Shown here: piece by piece, positions 30,378-62,339 of the stretch
How the letters are laid out: each line of letters starts with the position of its first letter
Numbering within the stretch: position 1 is the first letter of the stretch
Assembly: GCA_022821385.1 (NCBI GenBank)
Contig: JAJEDR010000057.1
Coordinates: 1 to 64,000, forward strand
DNA length: 64,000 nt
Direction of reading: 5' to 3'
Source: Rhodothermales bacterium
Lineage (GTDB): Bacteria; Bacteroidota; Rhodothermia; Rhodothermales; Bin80
The notes under the pieces: model-generated
The model's database searches: none
The model's input: only the letters and a program-made list of their open reading frames with translations
Told to the model about the DNA's origin: nothing
Program-made: the position numbers and the translations under genes

Positions 30378-30802
30378 GTTCGGCTGTTCCACAAGCCTCG
30401 CCAAAGTGTGATGTTCCAAGTGAAGTTCCGTTCTGAGAATGGCTGATAAGGCTGCTCGAGAGCCCGAAAGCGAATAAAGTTCACTTCAATCAACGCAGTT
30501 GGCTTCGGATACAGGTTTGCGCACAGCAATTGGATCACTTAAGAACTATTTCATATACTTCGAGAGCGAATCGGCGTATACATCAGGTTAGCAATGGCTT
30601 GGCCACGCAAATCTAATGCAATCCGTTCATTCCGTGGGGAACATAGTATATAGACGAACCAACCCGCGTACGGAGAGCGGCCTCCCAAAATGTGGATGTG
30701 AAACACTGAGAGATCAGATTTTTTGATATGCTGACGTGAAAGTAGATAACTGAATCACCGATCAACTGGGAACCGTTAAACACTGAACTGGTCCAACCCA
30801 TC

Positions 30803-31114
30803 ATGTCAGAAGAAATTAACCCCAACTACACGGGCACATTCACACGGGCTTCTATGCTGCTTCGCAAGAAGAAGCTCACTGCTGATGAAGCAAATGAACT
30901 CACTGAACTCTTTGAAAACATGGCCTCTGCGAACATAATTGCCCAATTCGGCGCCAAGCTGGATAGCATGAATGCTAAACTGGATGCCAAACTGGATGGT
31001 CAGTCAGCCGCCTTGGATGCTAAACTGGATGCTATGAACACGAAATACAATGTGCTCATCTGGGCTATTGGTTTTGCGACGGCAATACTTTCGGCTGCCA
31101 TTTTCTTTACCTGA
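30803..31114 (+). CDS. Small coiled-coil, C-terminal single-TM protein (full-length copy of an array)
   Basis: 103 aa with repeated LDxxxAKLDA heptads and a C-terminal hydrophobic helix (VLIWAIGFATAILSAAIFFT). Confidence 0.65.
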   Translation: MSEEINPNYTGTFTRASMLLRKKKLTADEANELTELFENMASANIIAQFGAKLDSMNAKLDAKLDGQSAALDAKLDAMNTKYNVLIWAIGFATAILSAAIFFT

Positions 31115-31297
31115 CCTGCCTCGGAGTTGCAAAAACGTGTCAGAGCACCTCGGGATTGCGTCTGGACGGTACTATTTCCCCCATTCAGACGAGAGGAGTT
31201 GAGTTATCTTGGTGTGCATATACAGATGCGTACATAACGGAAGAGACTTGATCACCGATAAAATCATGAATCTCTGGACGCTGAACTCTTTGAAAAC

Positions 31298-31459
31298 ATG
31301 GCCTCTGCGAACATAATTGCCCAATTCGGCGCCAAGCTGGATAACATGAATGTCGCCTTGAACGCTAAACTGGATGCTATGAACACGAAATACAATGTGC
31401 TCATCTGGGCTATTGGTTTCGCGACGGCAATCCTTTCGGCTGCCATTTTCTTCACCTGA
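31298..31459 (+). CDS. Truncated copy 2 of the coiled-coil/TM gene (53 aa; possibly a pseudogene)
   Basis: ATGGCCTCTGCGAACATAATTGCC to TGA; encodes MASANIIAQFGAKLDNMNVALNAKLDAMNTKYNVLIWAIGFATAILSAAIFFT. Too short for the supplied ORF track. Confidence 0.5.
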   Translation: MASANIIAQFGAKLDNMNVALNAKLDAMNTKYNVLIWAIGFATAILSAAIFFT

Positions 31460-31640
31460 TCCGCCTCAGAGTTTTATAAAACATGTCAGAGCACCTCTGG
31501 ATTGCGTCTAGACGGTAACACTCCCCCATTCAAACGAGAGGTGTTGAGTCATCTTGGTGTATATATAGATGTGTACATGACGGTAGAGAGTTGATCACCG
31601 ATCAGATTAGGAATCTCTGGGCACTGAGCTCTTTGAAAAC

Positions 31641-31847
31641 ATGGCCTCGGCAAACTTGATTGCCCAATTCGGCGCTAAGCTGGATAACATGAATGCCGCC
31701 TTGAGCGCTATACTGGAAGCTAAACTGGATGCTCAGTCAGCCGCACTGGAGGCTAAGCTGGATGCTATGAACATGAAATTAATTGTGCTGATCTGGGAAA
31801 TTGGTTTCGCGACGGCAATCCTTTCGGCTGCAATTTTCTTAACCTGA
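31641..31847 (+). CDS. Truncated copy 3 of the coiled-coil/TM gene (68 aa; possibly a pseudogene)
   Basis: Translation aligns with copy 1 from MASAN to the C-terminal TM helix. Confidence 0.5.
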   Translation: MASANLIAQFGAKLDNMNAALSAILEAKLDAQSAALEAKLDAMNMKLIVLIWEIGFATAILSAAIFLT

Positions 31848-31986
31848 CCTGCCAGGGATTTTTACAAAACGCGTCGAGATACACCGTGATTGCGTCTACT
31901 GTCTGATGAATTTGATCACTATGGATTTCTGCACGTGGGGAAGCCTGTCAATTGCTGTTCAGAACGTGTTTGTCTGAGATCAACTT

Positions 31987-34900
31987 TCATGCTTCCAGCA
32001 GCTTCAGAATTCTGGGGGCGTCCTCAGGAGTAAGCTCATCCAGCTGCAGGCATTTCCATCCCTCCCGCTCACACTCTGAGTGATCTTCCCAGCACTCGCT
32101 ATAGAAGAGTGCTACCTTTTGACTGGGCCACGCCACTTCGGCAGTCGTCAGGATTTGATTCTTGAAATCGGTGACATCAAAACCTATCTCAGGCGCCGGA
32201 GCCTCCTTGTCGGCCAAGCGGCGAAGAATCGGCTGGTATGACTCCCCGGAAGATTCGCCAAGGGCGATTCTCCATGCGTGAGGCATAACGGGAAGGGGTT
32301 CCCCAATACTCAGGAGATCGTAATATTCACGGTCACGGAGTCCCGAAGCGCAGAAGAATCCAGTCTGAGGATCAAGAAACTGAAACAGATTCATTGCGCG
32401 AAGGAACCCATTCCACACAGGTTTGAATGACGGCTCCGAATATGCGCTGTCGTCGAGATAGACGAAAGCCCGGAGCATTGTCGGGTCAACCGATCCATTA
32501 TTTACAAGATTGACAGCTACGCAACCCCTGTGCGGTTCATGTTCATTACATGTCCAGAATGCTCCGGTATTAGAGTTTGGCCGCAGAAAGTGGTCATCCA
32601 TGAACCAGTCAGGGACACTGCTCCTCAGGCTTTCCGGGGAACTGATTTCCGTTACATTGAGCACACCATGACAGTAGGCTAACGCCCGCCATTTTTCCGG
32701 ATCGGGGTCCGTCAGATACGCTTTTAGAAGATCAAAACTGCCCTTGGATCGTGCACGTTTCTGTAATTCCAGTCCACCCGGTTCTAACTCAAGATTTCGG
32801 ATGAAATTATCGAAGTGGGTAAACGAATTTCGCCGGGAATCAAGTGGAAAGAAATCGGTAATTTCTCCGGTGTTTTCCATCTGCAGGTCATCCCAGGTCA
32901 GAGACCAGACATGATAGCGTCCAGACATGAGGATCGCCATTCGTTTCAGCGTATCGTCGGCCAACCGGTCCTGGTGGTACGCGAAGCCATCCATGAAGAC
33001 AGCAATAGGGAGGCAGTTGGCTTCCTGATCTGGGGTGAGCAGAAAATCAGGCCTGGATGTTTTTTTCACACCGACAGACTCATTCAAGGAAACCTGACAT
33101 TCGATGTCCCATGTCCGCGGTCCAATTTTGAGTTGGTAAAACCTGTTCGTGCCATGGTGCTGTGTGACTCGGCTTGCCAGCTTCCATTCGTTGAGATGGC
33201 TCAGGAATGCTGCTTCCAGCGTACTTTCGACGAGCCTGTGGACATCAATATCCTCAATGCTCCTAATTTCCTCCAGTCCCTCTCCCTTGTCTACGATGTC
33301 TTCCAGAATATTGATGGCGGTTAGTCTGGAAATCGCTCCCCGAGTGAACGAATTACGGTACGCAAACAGACACTTGTAGCATCCGTCCTTCGTTTTGTCA
33401 TGTTGGCAGTCACACTTTTGCAATTTCTTCAGTGCAGGTTCAAGAATGTCCTGAATGAGCGCCTTGTCTGTAAGCAGATCTTTCAGATATCCTGTGCCGC
33501 CGGGCACCGTATCATAAAGGTAGATGAACGTGCGTCGAACCTGCTCATTAGGTATCGGGGCATCCTGAATGATGGTCTGAAGGTGATTCACCTGCCCCTG
33601 ATAGTGTATTTTTAGACCCATTAAAAGGGCTGCACAGAATGACTCGGCATGTTGTCTGATTCCTGTGTGCTCGGCTATAGGTAAGAGGATGCGGATGGAC
33701 TCAGATTCAAATTCGTGATACAGAGACAGGGCAATCCGCGGATCCTCATCCTTGCCCCGATACCTGCAGTAATATTCGTGGTCGGACTGTTTTCCATCTG
33801 GCAATTTAGCTTTGCCGCAAGCAGTACAAATATCAAAGCCCCCTATGGCCTCTTCCTTTCCGGCAGTGAAGATCGGAGGAGCATCAGGGGATTTCTGGCC
33901 ATGGTTGACGAATGTGAATCGCGTACGATGAATGAACTCAAATCCAAACGGCACGTCGGCGTGCCTGGACTGATAAGAAATTTTCACATCCTGTTCTTCA
34001 AATTTCGCGTGAGTATAGACAATAAACGGTTCACGTTGCCGCTCTTCATGGCGGTCATCAATGCGGCTGTCACGTTCAAAGGAAGTAGATCTGACTTCGG
34101 AAAGACGGACCATTTTCAGAACCTGTCCGACATCCCCCCATGAGTCACATTGACACTTGGGACATCTTCGGGTGACTTCTTCTGAGTCCAGTTCATACCA
34201 GGAACAGTCAGGACAGAATCGCCATGGCTGTACGTCATCATTGTCAAACCGTATCCCGCTGATGCGCACCTTCTTCCCATTCGCATAGAAATAATTTCCA
34301 GGTGCGAACTCCCGTATAGCCTGATGGCCGGGTCGGTCAAACGTTTCGGTTATGGGGGATACGGTCTCTTTGTTTCTGTCCGGCAGTACCGTTGAGAACA
34401 ACTGAGCGCCGCTTTGTGGGAAGGCGTAGTTCGGGAGGATGCCTTCATCCGAGAGAAAATTAAACACACTGGTCTCACCGATACTGTATCGCATGTGCCT
34501 AAGTCCCCTCAGGTGATCCTTCAGATTTTTGCGCTCAGTTTCATAGTTCTCATCTCTCGGTTTATCGTCAAGCGCAATGATTCTCCGTTGGAGACGTCGA
34601 ATGCGATTATTGAGTTGTTTCCGGCTTTCATATTTCTTCTGGAGTGCATTGAGCACAATTTGGCGAAGCTGTGCGTGTGATGTCCCCTGCGGACTGAAGA
34701 AGTGAGTTGCGGACTGGAGTATGTTCAAATCTTTCAGATTCGGAAACAACTCCTGAAAACCCTTGGCCAGTTTCCCCGAATGTGTGTCCACATAGCCGAG
34801 CCAGTTGAAGGGAAATCTTTTTGTATCACCATCTATTAATGCACCGAGAACGTTTCGTAATTGGTTGGGAACATCGGCCTGCTTCGTGTGGGCAACCCAC

Positions 34901-37900
34901 ATATCCATACTGTAGGCTGCCATTTGGCGCTGCAGTACCGCGGGTGCTTTCAAAAATACACCGGGTACCTGCACTTCGTCGCTGATCATTTTGCCAGGAT
35001 CAGCAAAGAAATAAAGATCGTGAGGCTTGTTCGTTGCTACCGTGAACCCAAACGAATTCCCATTTTTTCGGCCGGCCCGCCCGATTCTCTGGACATAATT
35101 AGCCTGTGCGGGGGGAACACTGCACAGAAATACAGTGGACAGATCTCCAATATCAATCCCGAGTTCCAGTGTTGGAGTACAGGAGACGATGTTTGGATCC
35201 CACGGACGTTGATCATCTCGCATAAACGTCTTTTCAACGTTCTCCCGGTCCTCGGGAGTCAGAAGTGCAGTATGCTCTTTGGGAACGAACCGACGTACAT
35301 CCCCAGATCTATAGAGTGCTTTGTAGTAATCAATTTCGCGGTCATCTATCAACTGGAATTGTCCTGTGCACCGGTGCATCAGGCAGGGCATACCCTGCCA
35401 GATTTCTTCATCTTGTTTAGGGATACTGACCTCGTAGTGGCACGTTGCGCAGGTCAAGGGACGTACTTGTGTCGTGACTTTGAGTGCGTCCGGCTCAATC
35501 CCCCAGACCGAGTACCGATTGGCCGTGTACTGTTTCAGAAGATCAGAGGGAGCAGCGTTAACAATTTCCCTGAGCGCAGCCTCAAACCCTGAGGGAGTCA
35601 TTTGACCTTCAAGAAAGCACTTATGGGCCCATCCCTGAACCCATGAGTTACTCCTAGATCCTGTCAGAGGGAGGAAATTTTGTGCTGCTCCAGAGGACAA
35701 AAACCCATGATACGGACCATTGGGCTTATATCGGGGCATCCAGGACAAGTGTTTCTCGGTGATACAGCGTTTGTTTCTACCAAGACTTCGGATATACTCA
35801 TCAAAGAATTTGTCGTGCACAATTCCACCGCAAGTTCGCAGGCGATAAATGAGACCCGCTAAAAACTGTTTGAATGCCGGCTGATCAACATCTTGGAGGC
35901 CCTCATACCTTGCTTTTATGTCGGGCAGCGCCCGCTCAATCCAGTCATCTAATAAGTCCTGATCCAGTGATACTGCAGCGGAGAGCGTCTTTTCCAGAGT
36001 TCTCCCGCGCCGGGCACGGAGTCCAAGGTTTAAATAGACTTCCCATTTCAGGCGTTTTGCCACCATGGATGGCAATTGAGACCCTTTCGGCAGATCTCCT
36101 TTTTTGACTAAGGTCTCATAGTCATCCATCCAGATCATGTTTGGAGCAATGAAGGTGCCCACAAAATCTTCACGCCCCAGTTTCTTGAGTTGCGATTGCA
36201 CGAGTCCGTCCGCAATCGTTCTGATGCCCCGATCTCCACCAACTGTTTCCAGGTATTGCAGGAGTGCGGTTCGAACACTAAATGTGTAAGTACGCGCTTC
36301 AAAGTAGCCTGCACGATGGGCGGCATCCTGAACTGAGTCGGAGAAGGTCAGGACTTTCCTATCATCATTGTATCGGGATGCAAATGTCTGACCCAGCGCA
36401 GCGGACAAAAGGGTGATTCCCCCAGCCCCGAAAATGCCGGGCTGATTTGATTCGCCGCAATGCGGGCATTCAGGTTTACCACGCCTCCGGTCTATTTTCA
36501 GGGAGGGAACATGAACCTTGATCAACGTTCCTCCATTCTCGCATTCATCGCATCGAACTGTGCGTGGACTAAAGATCTTGAGGCATTCCTGGCAGAGCCG
36601 CCCTTGCTCCGTAAGTGATGAATCCGCATAAGGGTAAATGACTTTCAGTTTGGCTTCCGATTTACGACCGAAGTACGTACCATAGATCTGGTCCAGGTCT
36701 GAGATTAATGGGTCATCGTCTGCAACGTGGGCTGCCATCCACCCTGCTGTTCCACACTTGATGCACGAGGCCAATGGTAGATGATGGGGCGGGGTTTGTC
36801 CAGCTAGATCAGAGTCCCAGACCAGTCTAGGATTCTCTTCAACGGAAACGACCATTCGCTTCAGTTCACGCATCCAGAACTGGACTCGTAATTCAAGTAG
36901 AGGTCTGGGTTTATGCAGATCCTTCGGATCAAGCGCGTAACTGATCAAGGACAGAAGGCTTTCCAGCAGTTGGGGCCTATCTACGATTCTCTGCGTTCCT
37001 GATCCGACTGGGAGAGCCAGTTTCTCATATTCGGACTCACTTGCCAAGGCTTTTTGAGCAACAACCCGGATCAGATTTTGAAATGCCACATGTTCTCGGA
37101 GTTTTGCCCCGAGTTCTTTTCTCCATTCATCCGTAGCGAGTCCATCTATGGAGATCTCGTCTCCAAACCAAGCCTTGTATTGCGTTTGGATATAGCCCGC
37201 AATGGAATCGAATTGATCTGGAGTAGATAGTTCCCGAGTATCTGGAAAGTGAATCCATGTGCTCGGCGACTCCATCAGAAAATCGCGCGGATCCAGACGT
37301 GCTTCGGTAATCAACGCATCGTCATCGAATTCTGTATCAAAGATCTTCTCAGCGTAGTCAAGCAACTTATCGCTGGAGCCGCTCCCAAGTGTTGCAGACG
37401 TTCCAATCGGACACAGATCCTTGGCTTGGAGGCGTGCTTTAAGTCTCCGTAGCAGGCAGGCAAGGTCCGTTCCCTGTGCGCCGTCAAAGACATGGAGTTC
37501 ATCCACCACAATGTAGCGCAAAGTGCAGGCACGGTTCCTCTCCCAAAGTCTTGCATCGTTCGGCCGGATCAGAAGGTAATCCAGCATCTTGTAGTTTGTC
37601 AGCAGCAGGTCCGGTGGAGATTCGCGTAGCTTGTGCCGGTTAGAAATAATGTTTGACTCGGTCATCCGGCCTCTTGGGGTCGCTCCCCCGATGTAGAGAC
37701 CAGCTGTGATTTTTTCTTTCAGGCTGGGATTGTTGCAAATGATTTCCGCTAGCCGTTTGGCCTGATCTGTAGCGAGCGCGTTCATCGGATAGATCAGGAT
37801 CGCTTTTATCCCGGGTTCATCGGCAACCTGTCGGCAATAATCCAGGATTGGATAGAGAAATGCTTCGGTCTTTCCCGAACCTGTACCGGTTGCTATAATG

Positions 37901-38175
37901 GTAGGCTTCGGTGGATTTGCAGTTAAGCGCTCAAATGCGCGTTCCTGGTGCAGATATGGATTAAAGCCCAAGGGAATGTCTGGGAAGGGCTCGCCGGTGT
38001 TTAAGCCTTTTTCAAACGGGAGCTGGAATGACAGATAGTTTCCCTGGAAGGCTTCTCCACCGTAAATGAATTCCCGGACGGCCCGTGCAAGGGACGGGGT
38101 CGAAATCCTGTAGCGTGTCTGTAGGAAGTCTTCGATAGTTTTACGGACTTCCCGTGCGACGATGGAAGGGATCAT
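31987..38175 (-). CDS. Giant DEAD/DEAH-box helicase with DUF1998 and candidate C-terminal PD-(D/E)XK/Vsr-like domain (DISARM DrmA/B-like or Druantia DruE-like)
   Basis: Walker A (IATGTGSGKTEAFLYPIL), VDELHVFDGAQGTDLACLLRRL, QRIGRAGRKNG, zinc-ribbon clusters, DUF1998-like region (CDCQHDKTKDGCYKCLFAYRN), then RPDFLL...IAVFMDGFAYHQD...KRMAIL. Confidence 0.85.
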   Translation of the reverse strand: MIPSIVAREVRKTIEDFLQTRYRISTPSLARAVREFIYGGEAFQGNYLSFQLPFEKGLNTGEPFPDIPLGFNPYLHQERAFERLTANPPKPTIIATGTGSGKTEAFLYPILDYCRQVADEPGIKAILIYPMNALATDQAKRLAEIICNNPSLKEKITAGLYIGGATPRGRMTESNIISNRHKLRESPPDLLLTNYKMLDYLLIRPNDARLWERNRACTLRYIVVDELHVFDGAQGTDLACLLRRLKARLQAKDLCPIGTSATLGSGSSDKLLDYAEKIFDTEFDDDALITEARLDPRDFLMESPSTWIHFPDTRELSTPDQFDSIAGYIQTQYKAWFGDEISIDGLATDEWRKELGAKLREHVAFQNLIRVVAQKALASESEYEKLALPVGSGTQRIVDRPQLLESLLSLISYALDPKDLHKPRPLLELRVQFWMRELKRMVVSVEENPRLVWDSDLAGQTPPHHLPLASCIKCGTAGWMAAHVADDDPLISDLDQIYGTYFGRKSEAKLKVIYPYADSSLTEQGRLCQECLKIFSPRTVRCDECENGGTLIKVHVPSLKIDRRRGKPECPHCGESNQPGIFGAGGITLLSAALGQTFASRYNDDRKVLTFSDSVQDAAHRAGYFEARTYTFSVRTALLQYLETVGGDRGIRTIADGLVQSQLKKLGREDFVGTFIAPNMIWMDDYETLVKKGDLPKGSQLPSMVAKRLKWEVYLNLGLRARRGRTLEKTLSAAVSLDQDLLDDWIERALPDIKARYEGLQDVDQPAFKQFLAGLIYRLRTCGGIVHDKFFDEYIRSLGRNKRCITEKHLSWMPRYKPNGPYHGFLSSGAAQNFLPLTGSRSNSWVQGWAHKCFLEGQMTPSGFEAALREIVNAAPSDLLKQYTANRYSVWGIEPDALKVTTQVRPLTCATCHYEVSIPKQDEEIWQGMPCLMHRCTGQFQLIDDREIDYYKALYRSGDVRRFVPKEHTALLTPEDRENVEKTFMRDDQRPWDPNIVSCTPTLELGIDIGDLSTVFLCSVPPAQANYVQRIGRAGRKNGNSFGFTVATNKPHDLYFFADPGKMISDEVQVPGVFLKAPAVLQRQMAAYSMDMWVAHTKQADVPNQLRNVLGALIDGDTKRFPFNWLGYVDTHSGKLAKGFQELFPNLKDLNILQSATHFFSPQGTSHAQLRQIVLNALQKKYESRKQLNNRIRRLQRRIIALDDKPRDENYETERKNLKDHLRGLRHMRYSIGETSVFNFLSDEGILPNYAFPQSGAQLFSTVLPDRNKETVSPITETFDRPGHQAIREFAPGNYFYANGKKVRISGIRFDNDDVQPWRFCPDCSWYELDSEEVTRRCPKCQCDSWGDVGQVLKMVRLSEVRSTSFERDSRIDDRHEERQREPFIVYTHAKFEEQDVKISYQSRHADVPFGFEFIHRTRFTFVNHGQKSPDAPPIFTAGKEEAIGGFDICTACGKAKLPDGKQSDHEYYCRYRGKDEDPRIALSLYHEFESESIRILLPIAEHTGIRQHAESFCAALLMGLKIHYQGQVNHLQTIIQDAPIPNEQVRRTFIYLYDTVPGGTGYLKDLLTDKALIQDILEPALKKLQKCDCQHDKTKDGCYKCLFAYRNSFTRGAISRLTAINILEDIVDKGEGLEEIRSIEDIDVHRLVESTLEAAFLSHLNEWKLASRVTQHHGTNRFYQLKIGPRTWDIECQVSLNESVGVKKTSRPDFLLTPDQEANCLPIAVFMDGFAYHQDRLADDTLKRMAILMSGRYHVWSLTWDDLQMENTGEITDFFPLDSRRNSFTHFDNFIRNLELEPGGLELQKRARSKGSFDLLKAYLTDPDPEKWRALAYCHGVLNVTEISSPESLRSSVPDWFMDDHFLRPNSNTGAFWTCNEHEPHRGCVAVNLVNNGSVDPTMLRAFVYLDDSAYSEPSFKPVWNGFLRAMNLFQFLDPQTGFFCASGLRDREYYDLLSIGEPLPVMPHAWRIALGESSGESYQPILRRLADKEAPAPEIGFDVTDFKNQILTTAEVAWPSQKVALFYSECWEDHSECEREGWKCLQLDELTPEDAPRILKLLEA

Positions 38176-41100
38176 AGTTTATTCTCCGCTTTGGCTTGTT
38201 CAAAAAAGGCCCATGCTTCACGATAGTCTTCTTCGCGGTCGCACTTGTCAAAAGGAGCGTGAAACTCTATAGTTCGCTCCACCGGACCACCGGGGAGCGT
38301 GTCATCCATAAAGGTGTAGGTGACAATTCCTTCTTTGAGGTCCTTGATATCGTTCCAGCCTAGCGCGATGTTGGTTTTGGACCCTGTGGGCGTATGGAGG
38401 CCGAATGTGGCTTTCTTGTTGGTTTGTTTTCGGCGGACGGGGCTCTCTCCATTTTTCTTTGAGAATACAATACGTCCCTTGGTATCATACCAGGTATCGT
38501 TCTCATAGGACTGAAGTCTGAAGAACTGGATCCGGTAAAGGGTCAGGAGTTCTTCCAGCGTTAGTCCGAGATCCAGTGCGTGTAGCACATCGATTTCCAG
38601 GAGAGCCTGCCTACGCGCGTAATCGGTGCGGAGCGGGCTGTCCCAGGACCAGGGAGCTTGCAATCCGTCAAACCAATCTGGATTCAGCCGGGAATCATGC
38701 TTGGACCAGGAGAGAGGTTCTTTGCGGAGCGTCCTCCAGATTGAACTGTAGTCGGTGCTAAGGCAGGAAAGTCCCAGGACGCGCGCGGTAGCTGTTGGTG
38801 ACGCTGGGGTGAGTGGAAGTGCAGCAAAAAAGTCTAGTCGGAAATTTGGTCTTCCCCCGATTTTTGTCGCAGCATCTGTAACGATGGAGAGGAGTGTGTA
38901 AAGTGCATTGACTAGATCATTACTCTGCAGTATAGCCACGGAAACAATGGCATCAATGTGACCTACACCCGGCGGTATCAGGGCTGGAAGTAGCGTGCGA
39001 TCCATACCAAGGTTAAGCATTTTCCGAATCGCCACCCGGAATTCCTCAGTCATGAGCGTCCCCCATGGCGTCTCCGGTGTGCGTTGGATAAATACGCATT
39101 CACTGCAGGCGGCCACATAATTCGTTCGTGGAAGGTAGGTCTCGGGGAGGGCGGTCAGATCTAGCCTTGAATAATCTCCCTTGGATTTGCATTCTGCATT
39201 TGGCGTCTGGAAAAAGGGAGTGCCAGCAAAAATGTGCGGCCCGGATAGGATCCACTCTTTTGTGTCTTCTGCAAAGCGCACCTTACGCCGGATCGTTCCA
39301 TCCTTTTCGCCCCCGGCCTCTTCCCACATTCGCGTGAACTTGAAAGCATCTCCTAGGTCCCGCATCCGCCTGGGCACGCGAGCCAGTTTGCGTAGGGCGC
39401 TTGCCAACTGCCGAGCATGAACCAGAGGCAGCCGCGCCTGTAGGGGCGTGGTACCCGGCGCATCATAGAGGGCGGCATACGTTCTGAGGTTTTCCTCTGT
39501 GGTCGGAATCACCCGGTCCCGGTGCTCCGTCAATTCCCATTTGTTGTCTTTGGTCTTGATGCCGGGCACCGGCCCAAGCCCGTCGTGCTTCAGTGACTTG
39601 ATCGCGGTCAGCGAAGAGTACAGGTTGGCCATGGAAACAAAATTAACCTCTTCCCTCCGCTGCCCATAGATGTTGATGCTGAATTTCACGACTGGGGGAA
39701 CTCCTTCAAACAAACCCAGCACATTTTCAAACTGCAATCGCGAGCGCAGCCTTGGATAAAGCGCTTCCCGCAGCTCCTGCCCCCTGGCTTCATCGTAGAC
39801 CGAATCCGGGTGCAGAAGTCCTACCGCACCGGTACTGATTTTCCACGAAGCACACAGGAATGCCTTGTAGAGGTTCGTTTGCAGTCCTTTCAAGAGAGGA
39901 TAATTCTGCGCTGCATTCAGGAACGCCAGTTGTCCTCCCACGGCTTCATAGGCCCGGATATAATGCTTCCGGTGTCTCGGCTTGTCCAGCCATACGCCCC
40001 GCAGCTCCGATGTCTTGGACGCGCTCAGTTTCCTCGTCACAAAGCGGGGCTCCCTATCTCCAATCACATATTTCTCAACAAAATTCGGTCTTCGCCAGGG
40101 TGGATTACCCAGCACAACATCAAACCCTCCCTTCTCCTTGAATTGATCCGCATACTCCAGCTCCCAGTGATGAAACCGGTACTGCTTTGCAACTTCCTGC
40201 ACTAATCTGAGTCGCGGCTGACGTTCGATCAGAGAGTTCAGATCAACGAACCCCAGCAAATCCCGCTTCGTGTCATCTGGAGGGGCATAGAGATAATAAC
40301 TCTCCACCTCTTCCTTGCCGGCAAGCAGTTGAGAGAGATCACTCAGATATTCTGCCCGCGTAGGCAAAAGACGAGACTGATCCACCGGCCAGTACCAGAG
40401 AGCACACCAGTAATCCATTACCAGCTTCAGCCGCTGGTATGCACTCGCATTTCCGTGCTTCGGATTCAGAATCCGTTCCTGGGCTTTTTCCTTATCCCGG
40501 GTAGACGAGCGGACTGCCTTTGCATCGGATGACTCAGGATAAACATTGAAAGTGTCCGTGGTCTCTGCTCCCAGCCGGATCAGATCCCGCACATGCTCCT
40601 GCCAGAGGCGGTCAATCACAGAAGAGAACCGCAATAATTGGTTGATTTCCGACTCGAGATGTTTTGCGGTAAAGTGTCTGCGCCATTCGGTGATGTGCTT
40701 CAATTCATCTCTTGCCATTTGCCGTACCACCTTGTGTTTGTACTGGGCCATCCCGGCATCCCCGACTAGAAAATGATAGATCGCGTCCTGTGGTCGATTC
40801 CGCGAAAGGGGTAAGTCTTCCGGCACCTGATTCCACCACTTCCCCTGTGCAAGTTCTTTTTTCTTGTAGACCCGCCGCCAGGCCCCGACCAGAGAGTTGC
40901 CACATTTGAGTTGATCCCCGAACCAGGGCACAAATCCGCCCGGGATCAGTGTGTTGAGCCAGAGAGAGATTCCACCCAGTTCCACCGCCACCGGATTCAG
41001 GTCCACACCGTATACATTGTTGTCGGCAAGGTACATTTTTACACGCTGCAACTCCGCGTTCCAGCGCTCTGTATTCAGCACCTCGCCCAACTCCCGCGCC

Positions 41101-42858
41101 TTCTGTGTCAGATAGGCTTCGGCCAACTGGGATACCGCTTCGTTCAGGAACGCCGCCGATCCCATGGCCGGCTCACATACCGTGATCCACAGAATCTCAT
41201 CGGCCGATTTATCTGCGATTACCTCTTTGAGTGCGAACTCTGTAACACATTTGGTCAGGCTCTCTGGCGTGTAATAGGATGCCGATTCTTCCCTGGCACG
41301 CCCGGTAAGACGGTAGATGAATTTACCCTTGGGATGCTCGCGCAGTGTTCCATCCGAATTGGTTACCCGCTCATCCAGGTCTTTGTAATGCGTCTCCAGC
41401 GCTTCGCGATTGACAAAATAGGCTGGATCCAGCATGTTAGGGGAGGATTTGGCTTCGCGTACTTCATAGAGATGTTCCTGTGCAATAAATCCCCGGTAAC
41501 TCAGGAGCGCCTCGTAGACCGATCCCAGGTGGTTCACACTCAAATGGCGATACGAAATTCTTCCAGGGCCCCGCCACCTCTTTTTTTGTTTTTTGTGAAA
41601 GTCCTCATGGCCCAGGGACATCAACTTGATGATCCTCTGCCAGCTTCGATTGCGCACCGTGATGGAGTTCAGGAGCGGTGTTTTGTCTGGATCAAACAGG
41701 TCGCATTCCAGTGGAGAGATTTCGAACGAGCGTACGCCTCCCTGCAAAATCTCCTGCTGCACGCCGGGCTTATCATTGCATCCTTGGTAGACGAGCTCAA
41801 AGAGCATCTTGACCGACTCATGAAAAAAGCTTCCTTCTGCGCTCCCGTTCTCACGCAGGCAGACCATCTCTAGATCCCGCAGTTTTTCCAGACTGTACCC
41901 GTTGCGGTACACTGTCGCATCCATCGGCAGGTATCCAAGGTCCTTCCGTGCTTCCACGTTAAAGAGAAAAAGCAGCCGGTACATGTAGTACAGGCATTCC
42001 AAGGTCAAGCGTTCCGCCAGATCCGTGTCATTTGCAATGGGCCGCCCTCTTCGTTTCCGATCTGACAGATACTCATTCCCTAGAATCTCAATTGATTCCC
42101 GAAGTGCGTACTTGAGACTTCCGGATACGCCGGTGGCATGCTGGATGGCGTGCTCCTGCAGCTCTTCCTGGTAGGAGCGGCCTGCGTCCGGGCACAGCGC
42201 CGGCTTGTAGAGCAGCATCGTGACTAGCTTCCAGGTGTCAATCTTCGGCAACTGGTTGTAGAGCTCTTCCCAGTTGAAGCGCAGCATGCGCCCGGCTCCC
42301 CACTTATCTCGTTCCAGGAGGATCCATGTCTGGAGTCCGGTGAGCAGGATCCATCGTGGCGGGGCATCAATGAAGAACCCCTTGTCAATCAGGCGCTGAA
42401 ACGACTCACTATCAGGATCCGCATCATGGGGCACACGGGCTAGAAATTGCCCCCCCAATTTTCTCAAGGTCCACCGCCTCCACCACCCACAGGTAAGGCG
42501 TGTTGAATGATTCAAACTGTCCAAGTACCGGCAGATGGAGGTTCCGATCCACCTCAACGTGACCCAGACTCCTCCTGTAGCCCAGAATCTGAAGCAGTCT
42601 GGATACAAACCTCCGCTGGATCAGGACCCGCTCTTCTGCACCTGCAGCAGCAAACTGTTTGCCTGCCTTCAAATATTCTGCGACCTGTCTCTTGAGTTCA
42701 ATCCACGGGCGGAGATCAGGATCTCCTAGTGTTTTCTCAAACGCGTTGGCTTTCCACTTCTTCTCAAACTCCTTTACTTTCTCCGGCAACATCGCATGCC
42801 AGTAGTGATCAGGATAGAACTCGTTCTGATTGACTAGCCCCGTGTAATCAAATTCCAT
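38172..42858 (-). CDS. Eco57I/PglX-like class I DNA (adenine) methyltransferase, DISARM DrmMI-like; frame interrupted at a G7 tract
   Basis: ORFs 42424-42858 (N-term) and 38172-42608 (rest) join in frame if one G is removed at 42450-42456. Motifs: EPAMGSAAFLNEAVSQLAEAYL, VYGVDLNPVAVELGGISLWLNTL, VVLGNPPWRRP. The corrected product is ~1561 aa. Confidence 0.85.
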
Positions 42859-45757
42859 GAGTTGCCAGGATTACTGCAGCAATGTGTACGTAGGGATCTT
42901 TTTCCATGGTCATTGAATTTTTGATCCAATTTTGGAATTCATCAAATTTGTCACCGACTTGATCTAACTCTTTCTGTTTGCGGCCAAGCTCCATGTGCTC
43001 TATCCCTTTGCCGGGTTGGTATCGATTTTCAATATGGGCTTCCTGACGCTCTTTAAGCTCTCTGAGACTCGCCAGGTGTTGGTTCAGCGTGGCATCCAGA
43101 CTGGTCTTGAATCTGCCTTGATCGTAAAGGGCATATTCTTTCGCTTTCGTCACAGCCTGGGGCACGCGTTTCTGTGCTATATCCAACAGATTAGAGGCCT
43201 GCCCTTTGTTGGGGAGACGACTGGATCGGAGTTTATGGTAGATATCAGATTCCTCGAAAAGACTGACTTCAAAGCCTCCCCCGGCATTCCCTGTCACAAG
43301 GTACCACCGCTGAAATATTGTCACACCTTTCTGGTTGGGCCAGAGAACGGTGATCAAATACGAAAACGTTCCGGGGAGCATGCCGGAAAGCCAGATGGCA
43401 GGGGCTTCCAGACGATTGAAAGACATCCGGATCTTGTCTGTCATCCATTCCATGAATGGATGGACAGGCCACAGGAATTGCAATTCAGGCCAGGTATTGT
43501 CCTGGGCGCGGCATTTTCGGATGGACTCCTTCATAGCCTGTGGATTTGATGAGAATACAAAGCGACTATCTTTTGGGCGAACAGAGATAGGTAACTGATT
43601 TACCACACTCTTCAGAGCGGTGCGCCCCTGCTCATTTTGAGGGACCACGACAATACGCTGTTTCTCGTCTGTGTAGGAAACACTCAGTTTGGCATCAATT
43701 CGTTTGGCCCAATTTCCTTGGATATGATTCAGGGCGGCCTTAGCGTAGGCATAATCCGTTTCAAACAGTGAAGACAAGTCTTCTGTGACATCGCCAGTAG
43801 CCGCAGTCGGACGTGTAGAATTCAAAAGGGCAGCTAAGGGATCAAGCTGCGGGTTCTCCTCCTGTTCACGGCTTCGGGCAGTGATGTAATGCTCTGCTTC
43901 TTCAACGGATAGTCCTAGCTCAATCGCTTGTCCCATTAGGTTTTCCTCTTCCTCGATCTGAAAAACACGCATCAGCATAGCTGGGTCACCAAGGTTCTCC
44001 TCCGCCTGCTTTTCTTTTTCGATCAACAGTTCCAACACCCGTGCATCCCCTTTGAATTTCTCATTCTCGCTTTCGGTTATGAGATAGAAAATTTGCGGCC
44101 TGCGTTCCTGGCCATAGCGGTCAATGCGGCCGTTCCGCTGCTGGAATCGCATCAGGGACCACGGGATGTCAAAATGAATCAGCCGTCTGCAGTGATAATG
44201 CAGGTTGATCCCCTCCGACCCTACATCCGTGGAGATGAGAAGGCGCACCGGAGACTGGTCCTGCCCGAACTCGTCAACGATTTTTTGCTGTTCCACATCC
44301 GAAAGGGATCCATGCAATTCACGAATCGCATCGTCTGCAAGTCCCAGATCACGGGTCAGGTTCTCCTTCAGGAACGTCAGTGTGGCAATCCGCTCTGTGA
44401 AGATCACCAGACGGTCGTGTGCATCGCTGCCCGTCCAGTTGAGTTCGCTGAGTATTTTCAGGAGTAGCTGGTATTTGGAGAATTCTCGGGCACTGACTTT
44501 TTGCAGCGCACCCTGCATCGCATACCAGGGTAATAGATCGTCTTCTCCCGTTCCTTCCTTTTCAAGTTTCTTGATGCGGTTCTGCACTGACTCCAGGCAT
44601 GCAGCAGGAGAGGAGAGAACTGCTTTCTCCATCGTAGTGCGCAGAAGCCAGCCGTCTCCCGTTCTCCGTGATAGCTGTTCGTGACGCGTATCAGCGATAA
44701 TGCAGAATACCTCTTCCTCCTCGGGGAAGGCGACTGCCCGCTTTAGCTTAACCTCACGATCCAGTAATATCGCCTGGTCGCGGATATCCTTCTTGAATCG
44801 GCGGACGAGGAGATTTTTTCCGTCCAGATCATCCTTGGTGTAATTCTTTTCATCCGCAATCACGGTCGGATCAAGCATGTTAATCAGACTGGCAAAGCTT
44901 TCCGCCTGTCCATCGTGAGGCGTTGCGCTCAGCATAACGAGCGCATCGCAACGCGAAGCGAGAATGTCTGCAAGTCGATGTCTGAGTGAAACCCGTTGGT
45001 TTTTCTTTTTTGCCACATTCTGCACTTCGTCAATAACGACGATATCCCAGTATGAATTCTCCAGAAACGGTCTCCAGGTCGTTGCATTCTTGAGCGTGTC
45101 AATCGAAATAATTGCACGATCAAAATGATGAAATGGATTGTGTCCCGCGGGTAGCTGCTCCCTCACGCGATGGATACCCGTCGAGTCCAGGCGCACCAGT
45201 GGGATCGAAAATCTGCTCCATAGTTCCTTCTGAAACTGTGTTAGCATACTTGCCAGCGAAACCACCAGAATACGCTTTCCCTGTCCCCGCCGGATCAGTT
45301 CTGCGATGAGGATGCCGGCCTCAAGCGTTTTCCCGAGCCCCGTGCCATCGGCAATCAGAATACGAGGTCTTGGCTGCTTCAGGGCCAGGAGCGCGGGTTC
45401 ACGCTGATAGAAAAGCTCATCCATAGCCCCGCGATGTCCCAGATAGAGCTTATCGTCAGGCGGAGGTGTCGTTCTTAACAGACTTTCAATATGCAACCGC
45501 GCTGCGAGATAGTTAGGGGATTTGTCATGTACCAGTTTGGTCTCATTCGGGTTGACCTCAGTGATTTTCTTCTCTTTTCCCTGGAGAAACTGCCACTGAA
45601 TATCTCGGACGAGCGGAGTGAGTCCAGTTACTTGGATTATGTAGTCATTATTACGGGTTCGTTTGGTGCCTCGCACGACCCACTCCTGGTCACGAATGAA
45701 CAGGCGCGCTCCCGGAGCAGGTACATGGGGAATGCGCCCTTTTTTAGTTTTGGGCAT
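42848..45757 (-). CDS. SNF2-family helicase, DISARM DrmD-like
   Basis: IADGTGLGKTLEAGILIAELIRRGQGKRILVVS, VVIDEVQNVAKK, LVMLSATPHDG, STDVGSEGINLHYHCRRLIHFDIPWSLMRFQQRNGRIDRYGQ. Confidence 0.88.
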   Translation of the reverse strand: MPKTKKGRIPHVPAPGARLFIRDQEWVVRGTKRTRNNDYIIQVTGLTPLVRDIQWQFLQGKEKKITEVNPNETKLVHDKSPNYLAARLHIESLLRTTPPPDDKLYLGHRGAMDELFYQREPALLALKQPRPRILIADGTGLGKTLEAGILIAELIRRGQGKRILVVSLASMLTQFQKELWSRFSIPLVRLDSTGIHRVREQLPAGHNPFHHFDRAIISIDTLKNATTWRPFLENSYWDIVVIDEVQNVAKKKNQRVSLRHRLADILASRCDALVMLSATPHDGQAESFASLINMLDPTVIADEKNYTKDDLDGKNLLVRRFKKDIRDQAILLDREVKLKRAVAFPEEEEVFCIIADTRHEQLSRRTGDGWLLRTTMEKAVLSSPAACLESVQNRIKKLEKEGTGEDDLLPWYAMQGALQKVSAREFSKYQLLLKILSELNWTGSDAHDRLVIFTERIATLTFLKENLTRDLGLADDAIRELHGSLSDVEQQKIVDEFGQDQSPVRLLISTDVGSEGINLHYHCRRLIHFDIPWSLMRFQQRNGRIDRYGQERRPQIFYLITESENEKFKGDARVLELLIEKEKQAEENLGDPAMLMRVFQIEEEENLMGQAIELGLSVEEAEHYITARSREQEENPQLDPLAALLNSTRPTAATGDVTEDLSSLFETDYAYAKAALNHIQGNWAKRIDAKLSVSYTDEKQRIVVVPQNEQGRTALKSVVNQLPISVRPKDSRFVFSSNPQAMKESIRKCRAQDNTWPELQFLWPVHPFMEWMTDKIRMSFNRLEAPAIWLSGMLPGTFSYLITVLWPNQKGVTIFQRWYLVTGNAGGGFEVSLFEESDIYHKLRSSRLPNKGQASNLLDIAQKRVPQAVTKAKEYALYDQGRFKTSLDATLNQHLASLRELKERQEAHIENRYQPGKGIEHMELGRKQKELDQVGDKFDEFQNWIKNSMTMEKDPYVHIAAVILATHGI

Positions 45758-53448: not shown

Positions 53449-54234
53449 TCAAATGCACGGGTTGCGCCAATCGAGGTACTGTAGGCCTGGCCCCGGCGGT
53501 GGAGGGGGCTTCGTGTAATGGCAGACTCGGCAGTAGTAGTGCAGTATATCCTTGCCACTCCGGTTCATGGGAAAGCCCGCGTATACATCCCTGTCACACT
53601 TGGGACATGCTTTTCCGTATTCCAACTCGGATTCGCCAATATGGTAAGCGCAGGCCTCGCATTGCCAAGCGGGGCCGTATCCATCGGTATCATATCCTAC
53701 AAAGGTGCCGTCGCGCCCACAGTAAGGACAGGTTTTTATTTCTCCATCAATGTAGTTGATGACATCTACACTATTGGCCAAATCCGTTTCCGGTAAATCG
53801 GAGGCCTTACCTGTGGCGGGACGTTGTTCCAGTTTATCCGCGATCGCCTCCGCGAGGTCTATGGATTTGTACTCAGCGGCCCTTAGATAGAATAAATCCT
53901 CCGGGAGACCCGGGACCTCGGTGCCATCAAAACGAACGGGAAGAATATATTCGCGGTGTTCTTTAATCATGCGACACAAGGCATGTTGCCTTTCGTGGCG
54001 GGGCCATGCCTTATTGACATATTCTTTCGAAATGAACATCACGACATACTCGGATTGCTGCGCAAATATGAAATCGAAATGTTCAACCAAGCTCCTTCCC
54101 CACAGCTTGACTTCTTCAAAACGGTCATAGAAAACAGAGATTCCGCGAGCTTGGAGATGCATAGCCACATCCTCAACATAGTCCCGCTGCTCACCGGCGA
54201 AGGTCAAGGCTACTTGGTATTCGTGGTTATTCAT
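53449..54234 (-). CDS. TIR-domain protein with C-terminal zinc ribbons
   Basis: YQVALTFAGEQRDYVEDVAMHLQARGISVFYDRFEEVKLWGRSLVEHFDFIFAQQSEYVVMFISKEYVNKAWPRHERQHAL is TIR-like; C-terminal CPYCGRDG...CEACAYHIG...CPKCDRD...YCRVCHY. Confidence 0.88.
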   Translation of the reverse strand: MNNHEYQVALTFAGEQRDYVEDVAMHLQARGISVFYDRFEEVKLWGRSLVEHFDFIFAQQSEYVVMFISKEYVNKAWPRHERQHALCRMIKEHREYILPVRFDGTEVPGLPEDLFYLRAAEYKSIDLAEAIADKLEQRPATGKASDLPETDLANSVDVINYIDGEIKTCPYCGRDGTFVGYDTDGYGPAWQCEACAYHIGESELEYGKACPKCDRDVYAGFPMNRSGKDILHYYCRVCHYTKPPPPPGPGLQYLDWRNPCI

Positions 54235-54475: not shown

Positions 54476-56167
54476 TTAACAGGTTAATTCCCAGTTTTCC
54501 TCAAGCACATCTAAAAGCTTCTTTTGCCTATTGGCTAAGTGCTCCGGCGTCCATTCAGAACTGTGGAGTACTTGAGTAGTCAGCGCATATGATGAAACGC
54601 CGCCGTTGCCGGAGAAATAAACGTTTTTCTTTCTTTCGAAATCATAATTCTGTGCTCTGGAATTTCTTCGACGATTGAGCGGGACAAGATTGGCAAGTTT
54701 ATGAACCCAATCCTTCCTAGATTGCTCATCCGGCCAGACCGACTCCCACTCACTGTCTGGAGCCACGGTTTGAGGCAGTACGTGTTCTATGGTCAAAATG
54801 TTCGGATCATAGGATGCGGCACCGTCGGAAAGAAAGGTGTCTAGCCGCAGAATAAGATAATTCCGTCGTCTAGGCATAAGTTCATAAATATCCCCTCTCA
54901 AAGCGGCCCGCATTCTTTCTTTTTCCTCATCGGTTAGCTCCACAGCTTGCACGGGCAACTCAAAATTGTGCTTTCTCTCTATAGCTTTGATAACCTCACT
55001 ATAGCGTTCGATACGTTTGTTAACATACAAGGCACATATGTGCATATAGGCCGCCAGTCTTTCTAACCTTCTGAAGAACCAAGCAACATATTCGGGATTG
55101 TTTCTGTTTTCTGATAAAAACAAAATGGCGGCAGGAATCCAGTCCGAGTTGTCTATCCGATTTAACCATCGAAGATAAGTATTGACTTCTTCCGAATGGG
55201 ATGTCGCCGCATAGTTACGATTCCAAACGGTTGCCAAGGCACCTGAAAATGGTTCCAATACTTTACTTATCAATTCCTTCGGTTTTCCTACTTTGCTCAG
55301 AACATGAGCCCTAAACTCTTCGAGCAAGGATCTTTTCGCCTTTTCCTTCGCATATATCATCCTCACGTAGGAGAACAGATCGTTAAAACCGCTTCGATCA
55401 AGTTCGACTTCCATATCTTCCCAGCGCTGACTGTATTCCTCCCTTTCTTCTCCGGTGCTCAGTTGTCCGATGATTTTAGCCTTGATGATATCGGTCGGCT
55501 GAAGGTCCAGACCTCTGCTGTTCATGACGGAAAAAACGCGGAACGCCGACTGCTGGCTAGGCGTCGATACGACAACCAGAAAACAGCGCTGCAATAGAAA
55601 CTTAGTAAATTCTGTTGTTCGCTGGAGATCGTTTCTCAGATGCTTCAATTTATCCTGCAGGTAAAGCTTGCTAATTTTCTGGATATTTATTTGCGCCTCG
55701 TTATCAAGACTTTTTTCATCCAAGTCTAGCAGATCATCAAAATTCAATCCTTGAACATACTTGAGAAAAAATTCTTGGTCCCGGTCCCTGAGAGTCAAGC
55801 GCGGCTTGGGTTTTAGTCCCGCGAATTCATTACCAGGTTCCTTTATGTATTGACACAACATGTTCCGTTGTTCCCCTTCAAATATTGAAGCCAAAGCGGA
55901 TATGAGAATGGTCAAAGTGGTTAATCTCTGCTGACCATCTATTACCTCCGAGTTAGGTTGGGATTCCTGCTTAATAAGAACTATGCTGCCAAGGAAATAT
56001 CCTTCCTCGGATTCAGACTTGTAAAAGCCAAAAAGGTCGTCAAAAAGCTCCAACGCCTGATCTACTGTCCACGAATATGGACGCTGGTAACGGGGAATCT
56101 TGTATTCAAAATCAGAACTGAATATTTTCGCCAATTTGTATTCAGCACCGCTAATTAATTTGCTCAT
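54476..56167 (-). CDS. DUF262-DUF1524 (GmrSD/type IV restriction-like) nuclease
   Basis: IPRYQRPYSWTVDQALELFDDL, EVIDGQQRLTTLTILI (DUF262), ILTIEHVLPQTVAPDSEWESVW...HKLANLVPLNRRRNSRAQNYDFERKK (DUF1524 HNH). Confidence 0.92.
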   Translation of the reverse strand: MSKLISGAEYKLAKIFSSDFEYKIPRYQRPYSWTVDQALELFDDLFGFYKSESEEGYFLGSIVLIKQESQPNSEVIDGQQRLTTLTILISALASIFEGEQRNMLCQYIKEPGNEFAGLKPKPRLTLRDRDQEFFLKYVQGLNFDDLLDLDEKSLDNEAQINIQKISKLYLQDKLKHLRNDLQRTTEFTKFLLQRCFLVVVSTPSQQSAFRVFSVMNSRGLDLQPTDIIKAKIIGQLSTGEEREEYSQRWEDMEVELDRSGFNDLFSYVRMIYAKEKAKRSLLEEFRAHVLSKVGKPKELISKVLEPFSGALATVWNRNYAATSHSEEVNTYLRWLNRIDNSDWIPAAILFLSENRNNPEYVAWFFRRLERLAAYMHICALYVNKRIERYSEVIKAIERKHNFELPVQAVELTDEEKERMRAALRGDIYELMPRRRNYLILRLDTFLSDGAASYDPNILTIEHVLPQTVAPDSEWESVWPDEQSRKDWVHKLANLVPLNRRRNSRAQNYDFERKKNVYFSGNGGVSSYALTTQVLHSSEWTPEHLANRQKKLLDVLEENWELTC

Positions 56168-61873: not shown

Positions 61874-62339
61874 TAGATTATCTGTTGGATTCCTCATTCT
61901 GTTTGAGACCGGGCGTAATCAGCTCTTGGACTAAGTTGGTCAAGTGCAAACCGACCTTTTTTCGGAGTTTCTCTCCTGTCGGACTTGGATTGCTACGAAG
62001 ACTCGCCATTTGCTTTGACCCTTCTGAGAAATACTCATGCTTCGTGACGGTCATCATCGCTGTCTTATTTATCAAAGGGAGCATAGTATGCAACGTATGT
62101 CCCTGCGGCCTACGAGTAGCGTGTCATCCAGGTACGCGTAGATTGCTCTAGGTAAGGTCTTTGAATCGTCCCATCCGAGCACGAGTTTGGTTTACGCGCG
62201 TCTCGGAGTATGCAGATTGAATGCAATACGTTTTTCCTCCTAGTATGGGATCGCGGAACCAGTCATGATTGGCCAGTGGTTGGCTTTGAATCAAACTAAC
62301 CTGGGGGACGATCACGCAGCAAACGTAAGATTGCGCTAT

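Follow-up and report, generated by a model that had tools for sequence, protein, structure and literature searches.

In the 64,000-nucleotide stretch of a Rhodothermales genome analyzed here (GCA_022821385.1, contig JAJEDR010000057.1, positions 1 to 64,000; hereafter the window), a methyltransferase gene changes reading frame exactly at a tract of seven G. Judged by its genes and their order, the locus is ARMADA, a DISARM-related array, with the Type II composition armA–armB–armC, and the broken gene is armB. Phase variation at this G7 site, with armB caught in the off phase, is the reading that we tentatively adopt, at a little short of an even chance. Comparison with three congeners, in which armB carries longer tracts at another site, makes phase variation of armB in this genus very probable.

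Gene Content of the Locus and the Frame Break in armB

ARMADA was first described in 2025 and comprises, in its Type II form, an SNF2 helicase (ArmA), a PglX-like methyltransferase (ArmB), a YprA-like helicase (ArmC), and a GajB-like helicase (ArmD), the last being a UvrD helicase with a RelE-like domain that is encoded 3′ of armC (PMC12458937). In the window, the gene of a BrxHII/RapA-like SNF2 helicase, homologous in most loci, lies 5′ of armB (Table 1). The methyltransferase is PglX-like and contains both a SAM motif and NPPW in its continuous reading; as sequenced, it is frameshifted before both. ArmC finds its best PADLOC match in DruE1 (6e-110; DrmA, 1.8e-18) and shares 34% identity with its YprA-like counterpart in the E. 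coli locus. The armA/armB/armC trio recurs at most of 80 relatives from bacteria and archaea, and E. coli JL05 carries a matching operon followed by a UvrD-like gene. The locus shares with DISARM class 1 a DrmD-like SNF2 helicase and a PglX/DrmMI-like methyltransferase; in contrast to that class, it has one fused DruE-like helicase instead of separate DrmA and DrmB proteins, and its operon lacks DrmC. Neither a PLD nuclease nor a separate DUF1998 protein was found among the scanned neighbors in the test for the drmA, drmB, and drmC set of DISARM class 1. Membership in DISARM was rejected for want of separate DrmA/DrmB and of DrmC, and the preliminary label "DISARM-like" gives way to ARMADA, which the gene content and order match.

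Several other observations concern the surroundings of such loci. A TIR-domain protein (53449–54234) and a GmrSD-type restriction enzyme (54476–56167) are encoded near the operon, forming a defense island. Fragments resembling the C-terminal part of armB and containing stops are found in the window (62108–62236) and on another contig of the same genome (G000 contig C12:50196–50400). In E. coli JL05 (L230), ARMADA adjoins a Druantia III-like pair and Zorya II, and both genes of the Druantia-like pair as well as zorA2 are annotated as frameshifted.

Table 1. Features of the ARMADA operon in the window
Feature	Position	Strand	Description
armA	42848..45757	(-)	SNF2/RapA-like helicase, 969 aa, intact; DrmD/BrxH/RapA-like matches; end overlaps armB start
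armB, N-terminal part	42424..42858	(-)	144-aa product as sequenced; N-terminus NEFYPDHYW conserved in relatives
G7 mononucleotide tract, frame break	42450..42456	(-)	armB codons ~135–137 of 1561; frame analysis
armB, remainder in downstream frame	38172..42449	(-)	listed ORF starts at 42608; SAM motif and NPPW inside
armC	31987..38175	(-)	YprA/DruE-like DEAD helicase with MZB (DUF1998) domain, 2062 aa, intact; ATG overlaps armB stop
armD remnant	31899..31990	(-)	ATG and ~25 codons, 4-nt deletion, TGG->TGA, then unrelated sequence

The open reading frame at 38172–42608 (1478 aa) and that at 42424–42858, both on the minus strand, are one nucleotide out of register. The point at which the register is lost coincides with the G7 tract, which reads as C7 on the plus strand (...AGAAATTGCCCCCCCAATTTTCTC...). 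The preliminary description had located the break there, had assigned both frames to a single methyltransferase gene, and had foreseen a continuous enzyme of ~1561 aa from six G and a stop after 144 aa from seven; sequence and frame analysis confirm each of these points. As sequenced, the short product consists of 136 authentic residues and eight out-of-frame residues, the latter beginning just past the tract (...VVEAVDLEKIGGAISSPCAP, then stop). With six G, armB reads through 1561 codons without interruption (...LEKIGGQFLARVPHDADPDSE...), and the SAM motif EPAMGS and the catalytic NPPW fall at residues 562 and 918, respectively. Both motifs lie downstream of the break, so ArmB as sequenced is without its enzyme core. 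The tract sits inside the reading frame and early in the gene (codon ~135 of 1561), and its length equals the lower bound of a tract switch, at least seven G/C.

In the mechanism that we propose, slipped-strand replication would alter the length of the G tract at armB codon ~135. With seven G, the frame would be lost and translation would stop after 144 aa, before reaching either the SAM-binding motif or NPPW; a tract of six (or nine) G would yield the 1561-aa ArmB and an active defense. The early stop would probably also lower translation of armC through lost coupling, because the armC start lies on the armB stop (an ATGA overlap) and termination 4 kb upstream should reduce initiation there. 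In the E. coli system, deletion of armB abolished protection, and the accessible text of that report mentions no harm to the cells from the deletion (PMC12458937). An off armB is thus expected to mean no defense and, by analogy, may not be toxic to the cell itself. The earlier concern that loss of the methylase beside intact helicases would be risky does not necessarily apply, at least as far as the accessible account of the E. coli deletion goes.

Slippage of the ribosome or of transcription on G7 might instead bypass the break and yield some full-length ArmB. The frame would be regained through a +1 ribosomal slip or the loss of one G from the mRNA, and downstream the frame is conserved. However, after the common −1 slip translation would run into a stop a few codons on, which makes simple recoding unlikely and led us to reject a −1 frameshift; moreover, unlike known programmed sites, neither the tract nor its surroundings are conserved in congeners. 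We regard bypass as very improbable.

Loss of armD and the State of the Remaining Genes

Whereas armD is intact in four congeners (G001, G002, G005, and G008), the window lacks the armD of ARMADA Type II. After ~25 armD codons, the remnant passes into unrelated repeated sequence, and no other armD was found in the genome, where the best match is 24% identical (E 5e-4). The place at which armD would be expected (30378–31890) is occupied by about three degenerate copies of a short open reading frame with coiled-coil and membrane-like character (...NIIAQFGAKLDSMNAKLDAKLD...).

The loss of armD bears directly on how the break in armB is read. A homopolymer hot-spot frameshift may recently have disabled armB, one way, in an outgoing operon that was already without armD, the tract having no role in switching; this is a substantial possibility, though one that we place clearly below even. 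The armD remnant, with its 4-nt deletion and nonsense codon and the rest of the gene gone, fits such a course, and other ARMADA copies in the family are damaged by other kinds of lesion. In G009, armB is cut near codon 1463 by IS66-like transposase sequence (L036:13970–14884, L222:1–440); in G008, armC changes frame near codon 1776, near a T6 run (L220:12840–12870); and in G015, armD has two frame changes, one of them at an A8 run (L224:1940–2690). In addition, all four genes are needed in E. coli ARMADA (PMC12458937), yet armD is dead here. With two lesions in the operon, in armD and in armB, the switch reading is weakened for the window copy, and one-way inactivation is kept as a close rival.

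The condition of the other three genes argues the other way. Departures from residues with a conservation of at least 95% outside the genus were counted in the window and in congeners. In armA, the window departs at 11 of 186 such positions (congeners, 8–16); in armB, at 25 of 281 (congeners, 24–29); and in armC, at 10 of 246 (congeners, 7–14). Because the window genes do not exceed those of congeners in such departures, the 1425 codons downstream of the break appear to have been under constraint until very recently, and a long-dead pseudogene was rejected. Apart from the tract, the ~13.4 kb of armA–armB–armC contain no lesion, whereas the ~100 nt of the armD remnant contain three, so the three-gene unit was apparently kept under selection after armD had died. 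On this timing, which draws on small numbers in the remnant, the frameshift at G7 would be much younger than the loss of armD, or reversible, or not real. ArmA, ArmB, and ArmC may work together without ArmD.

G/C Tracts in the Window Genome, in armB of Relatives, and across the Genus

Tracts of exactly seven G number 66 in the window genome, and 56 of them are flanked by at least 30 aa to either side within an open frame no shorter than 150 aa. Frame calls from codon usage, with the exceptions then inspected, show 55 of these 56 in frame and a broken gene at the armB tract only. Apparent breaks in an adenylate kinase (L123) and in a gluconate-dehydrogenase-like subunit (L120) were rejected as being really gene starts or ends. 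Among 59 open reading frames with G7 tracts, a single methyltransferase was found, armB itself. That the one broken G7 of the genome lies in the one methyltransferase among its G7 genes favors a switch and speaks against one-way loss. These counts also bear on a consensus indel, from sequencing error or a strain chimera, at a homopolymer of a metagenome assembly, in which case the real gene would have G6 and be intact. Such errors do fall at homopolymers, the assembly is in 96 contigs, and the downstream frame of armB is fully conserved; but the 55 in-frame tracts point to a low error rate at G7. An indel error at the armB tract, though possible, would have to be an uncommon event, and we consider this explanation unlikely.

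Longer tracts in the same genome do interrupt genes of restriction-modification systems, which is in line with switching. In a type I HsdS, a frame-breaking C12/G12 tract separates the two specificity halves (L149:4011–4022; G000 contig C56:53010–53021), and this subunit is, from its sequence, a candidate for phase variation. The NgoAV system is said to be switched by a G tract in hsdS. A G11 tract just past the start codon puts a DNA methylase (N6_N4_Mtase and HNH) out of frame (L146; G000 contig C48:55826–55836), and C10 would restore the frame. A G16 tract also lies near a contig end, close to where an open frame begins on the other strand (L145; G000 contig C37:23548–23563).

The armB gene was aligned across its length with 80 full-length armB loci from elsewhere. 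A frame change was found in one of the 80, the congener G002 (L038/L217), at another G/C tract; two further relatives (L048 and L077) have one in-frame stop each. At the site of the window's tract, G tracts are absent in all congeners, and in that stretch a run of seven is found only in two distant relatives, L061 (G7) and L109 (C7), both in frame. A G/C run of at least seven arises somewhere in armB in 44% of synonymous shuffles (P = 0.44), and the window G7 is not retained among relatives beyond chance. The absence of the tract from congeners and its expectation by chance weigh against a switch and are consistent with one-way loss. So short a tract, at the bottom of the phase-variable range, likewise weighs against a switch. 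The lower cutoff in phasome surveys is seven G/C, and tracts of this length may mutate too slowly for efficient switching (PMC6321876). A second tract allele was sought in viral contigs through the tract flanks, at any tract length, and none was found there.

Near armB codon ~47, three congeners share a homologous tract of the form TA-C8..10-(G)-A-T6, which is absent from the window armB. The tract is C10 and in frame in G001, C9 and in frame in G006, and C8 and out of frame in G002, where the armB frame downstream of the break is otherwise intact and armD is intact as well. Tract length thus shifts the armB frame in both settings, with G7 off and G6 continuous in the window and C8 off and C9 or C10 on in the congeners; these comparisons are between single genomes per species, with heuristic frame calls and with tract lengths that are a consensus of metagenome assemblies, and two of the congener loci (L037 and L038) have similar sample codes and are perhaps not fully independent in processing. 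By synonymous shuffling, runs as long as those of the congeners have probabilities of 0.013, 0.027, and 0.034, and the G001 tract is one of only two tracts of at least ten G in that genome. Since such runs are unlikely by chance, phase variation of armB in the genus is very probable, although the window tract is not special as a run. Elsewhere, an armB relative from Clostridia (L084) contains an A16 run at codon ~1235, possibly also a switch.

Tracts of at least ten G are present in all 10 genomes of the genus, with up to ~20 in each; a few of these tracts, situated in odd G-rich stretches of G007 and G008, were excluded from the protein survey. The 95 open reading frames that touch tracts of at least nine G include 10 matches to Type_ISP_C, 10 to N6_N4_Mtase, 9 to N6_Mtase, 7 to Eco57I, and 3 to Methylase_S (the classes overlap), as against ~1 methyltransferase match among 59 flanking open reading frames used as a control. 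Type ISP, type III-like, and type I enzymes recur among the tract-bearing methylases, and the other large class consists of surface-protein domains (fn3, cadherin, and Ig-like).

The preliminary proposal of a phase-variable ON/OFF switch therefore stands in part. In its favor are the location of the break exactly at the tract, the intact and conserved frame downstream, the C8–C10 tracts of the congeners' armB in on and off states, the harmlessness of the other G7 tracts in long frames, and the frequency of poly-G in restriction-modification methylases of the genus. The window tract itself, being short, not conserved, and expected by chance in an operon that has lost armD, fits the proposal less well, and reversible switching by G7 may be supposed rather than read from the tract.

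Implications and Comparison with Known Systems

The named relatives derive from metagenome assemblies, several with sample codes that resemble those of sponge projects, and the bacterium is probably sponge-associated. A broader reading is that ARMADA is under phase variation in this genus, with armB having repeatedly gained contingency tracts within a wide poly-G repertoire of type ISP, type III-like, and type I enzymes; we consider it nearly as probable as not. In that reading, the armB tracts would be the codon ~47 poly-C of three species and the codon ~135 G7 of the window species, and populations would be mixtures of defended and undefended cells. If armB switches, the bet-hedging known from Pgl and restriction-modification systems extends to ARMADA, which is widespread (487 of 5426 searched E. 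coli genomes, ~9%, have an armB relative). An uncultured symbiont genus would then be a heavy poly-G switcher in its phage defenses, and tract lengths in metagenome reads could serve as a record of phage pressure and of horizontal gene flow. Persistence of ArmABC as a three-gene unit after the loss of ArmD would, in addition, bear on the role of ArmD.

Similar to the ARMADA described by Bell et al. (2025, PMC12458937), the locus has armA, armB with NPPW, and armC with MZB in identical order, and armD of the congeners is located directly 3′ of armC. It differs in that armD is only a remnant and armB is frameshifted at G7; the wording of that paper contains neither "phase varia" nor "frameshift". 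The Pgl system of Streptomyces coelicolor likewise includes a PglX-type defense methyltransferase that is switched by the length of a G tract within the gene, pglX being on with G8 and off with G7 (PMC4365076), and the earlier statement that such switching is established is borne out by this example. Pgl consists of PglW/X/Y/Z without an SNF2 or YprA helicase, and its switching was measured, whereas the window is known from sequence alone. Phase-variable genes of restriction-modification systems are also represented, in the accessible parts of the respective reports, by the methyltransferase gene of a Type IIG enzyme of Campylobacter jejuni (PMC4889913) and by NgoAV of Neisseria gonorrhoeae (PMC9577141). 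Both of these stand outside an ARMADA-like array, and allele switching is documented for them there.
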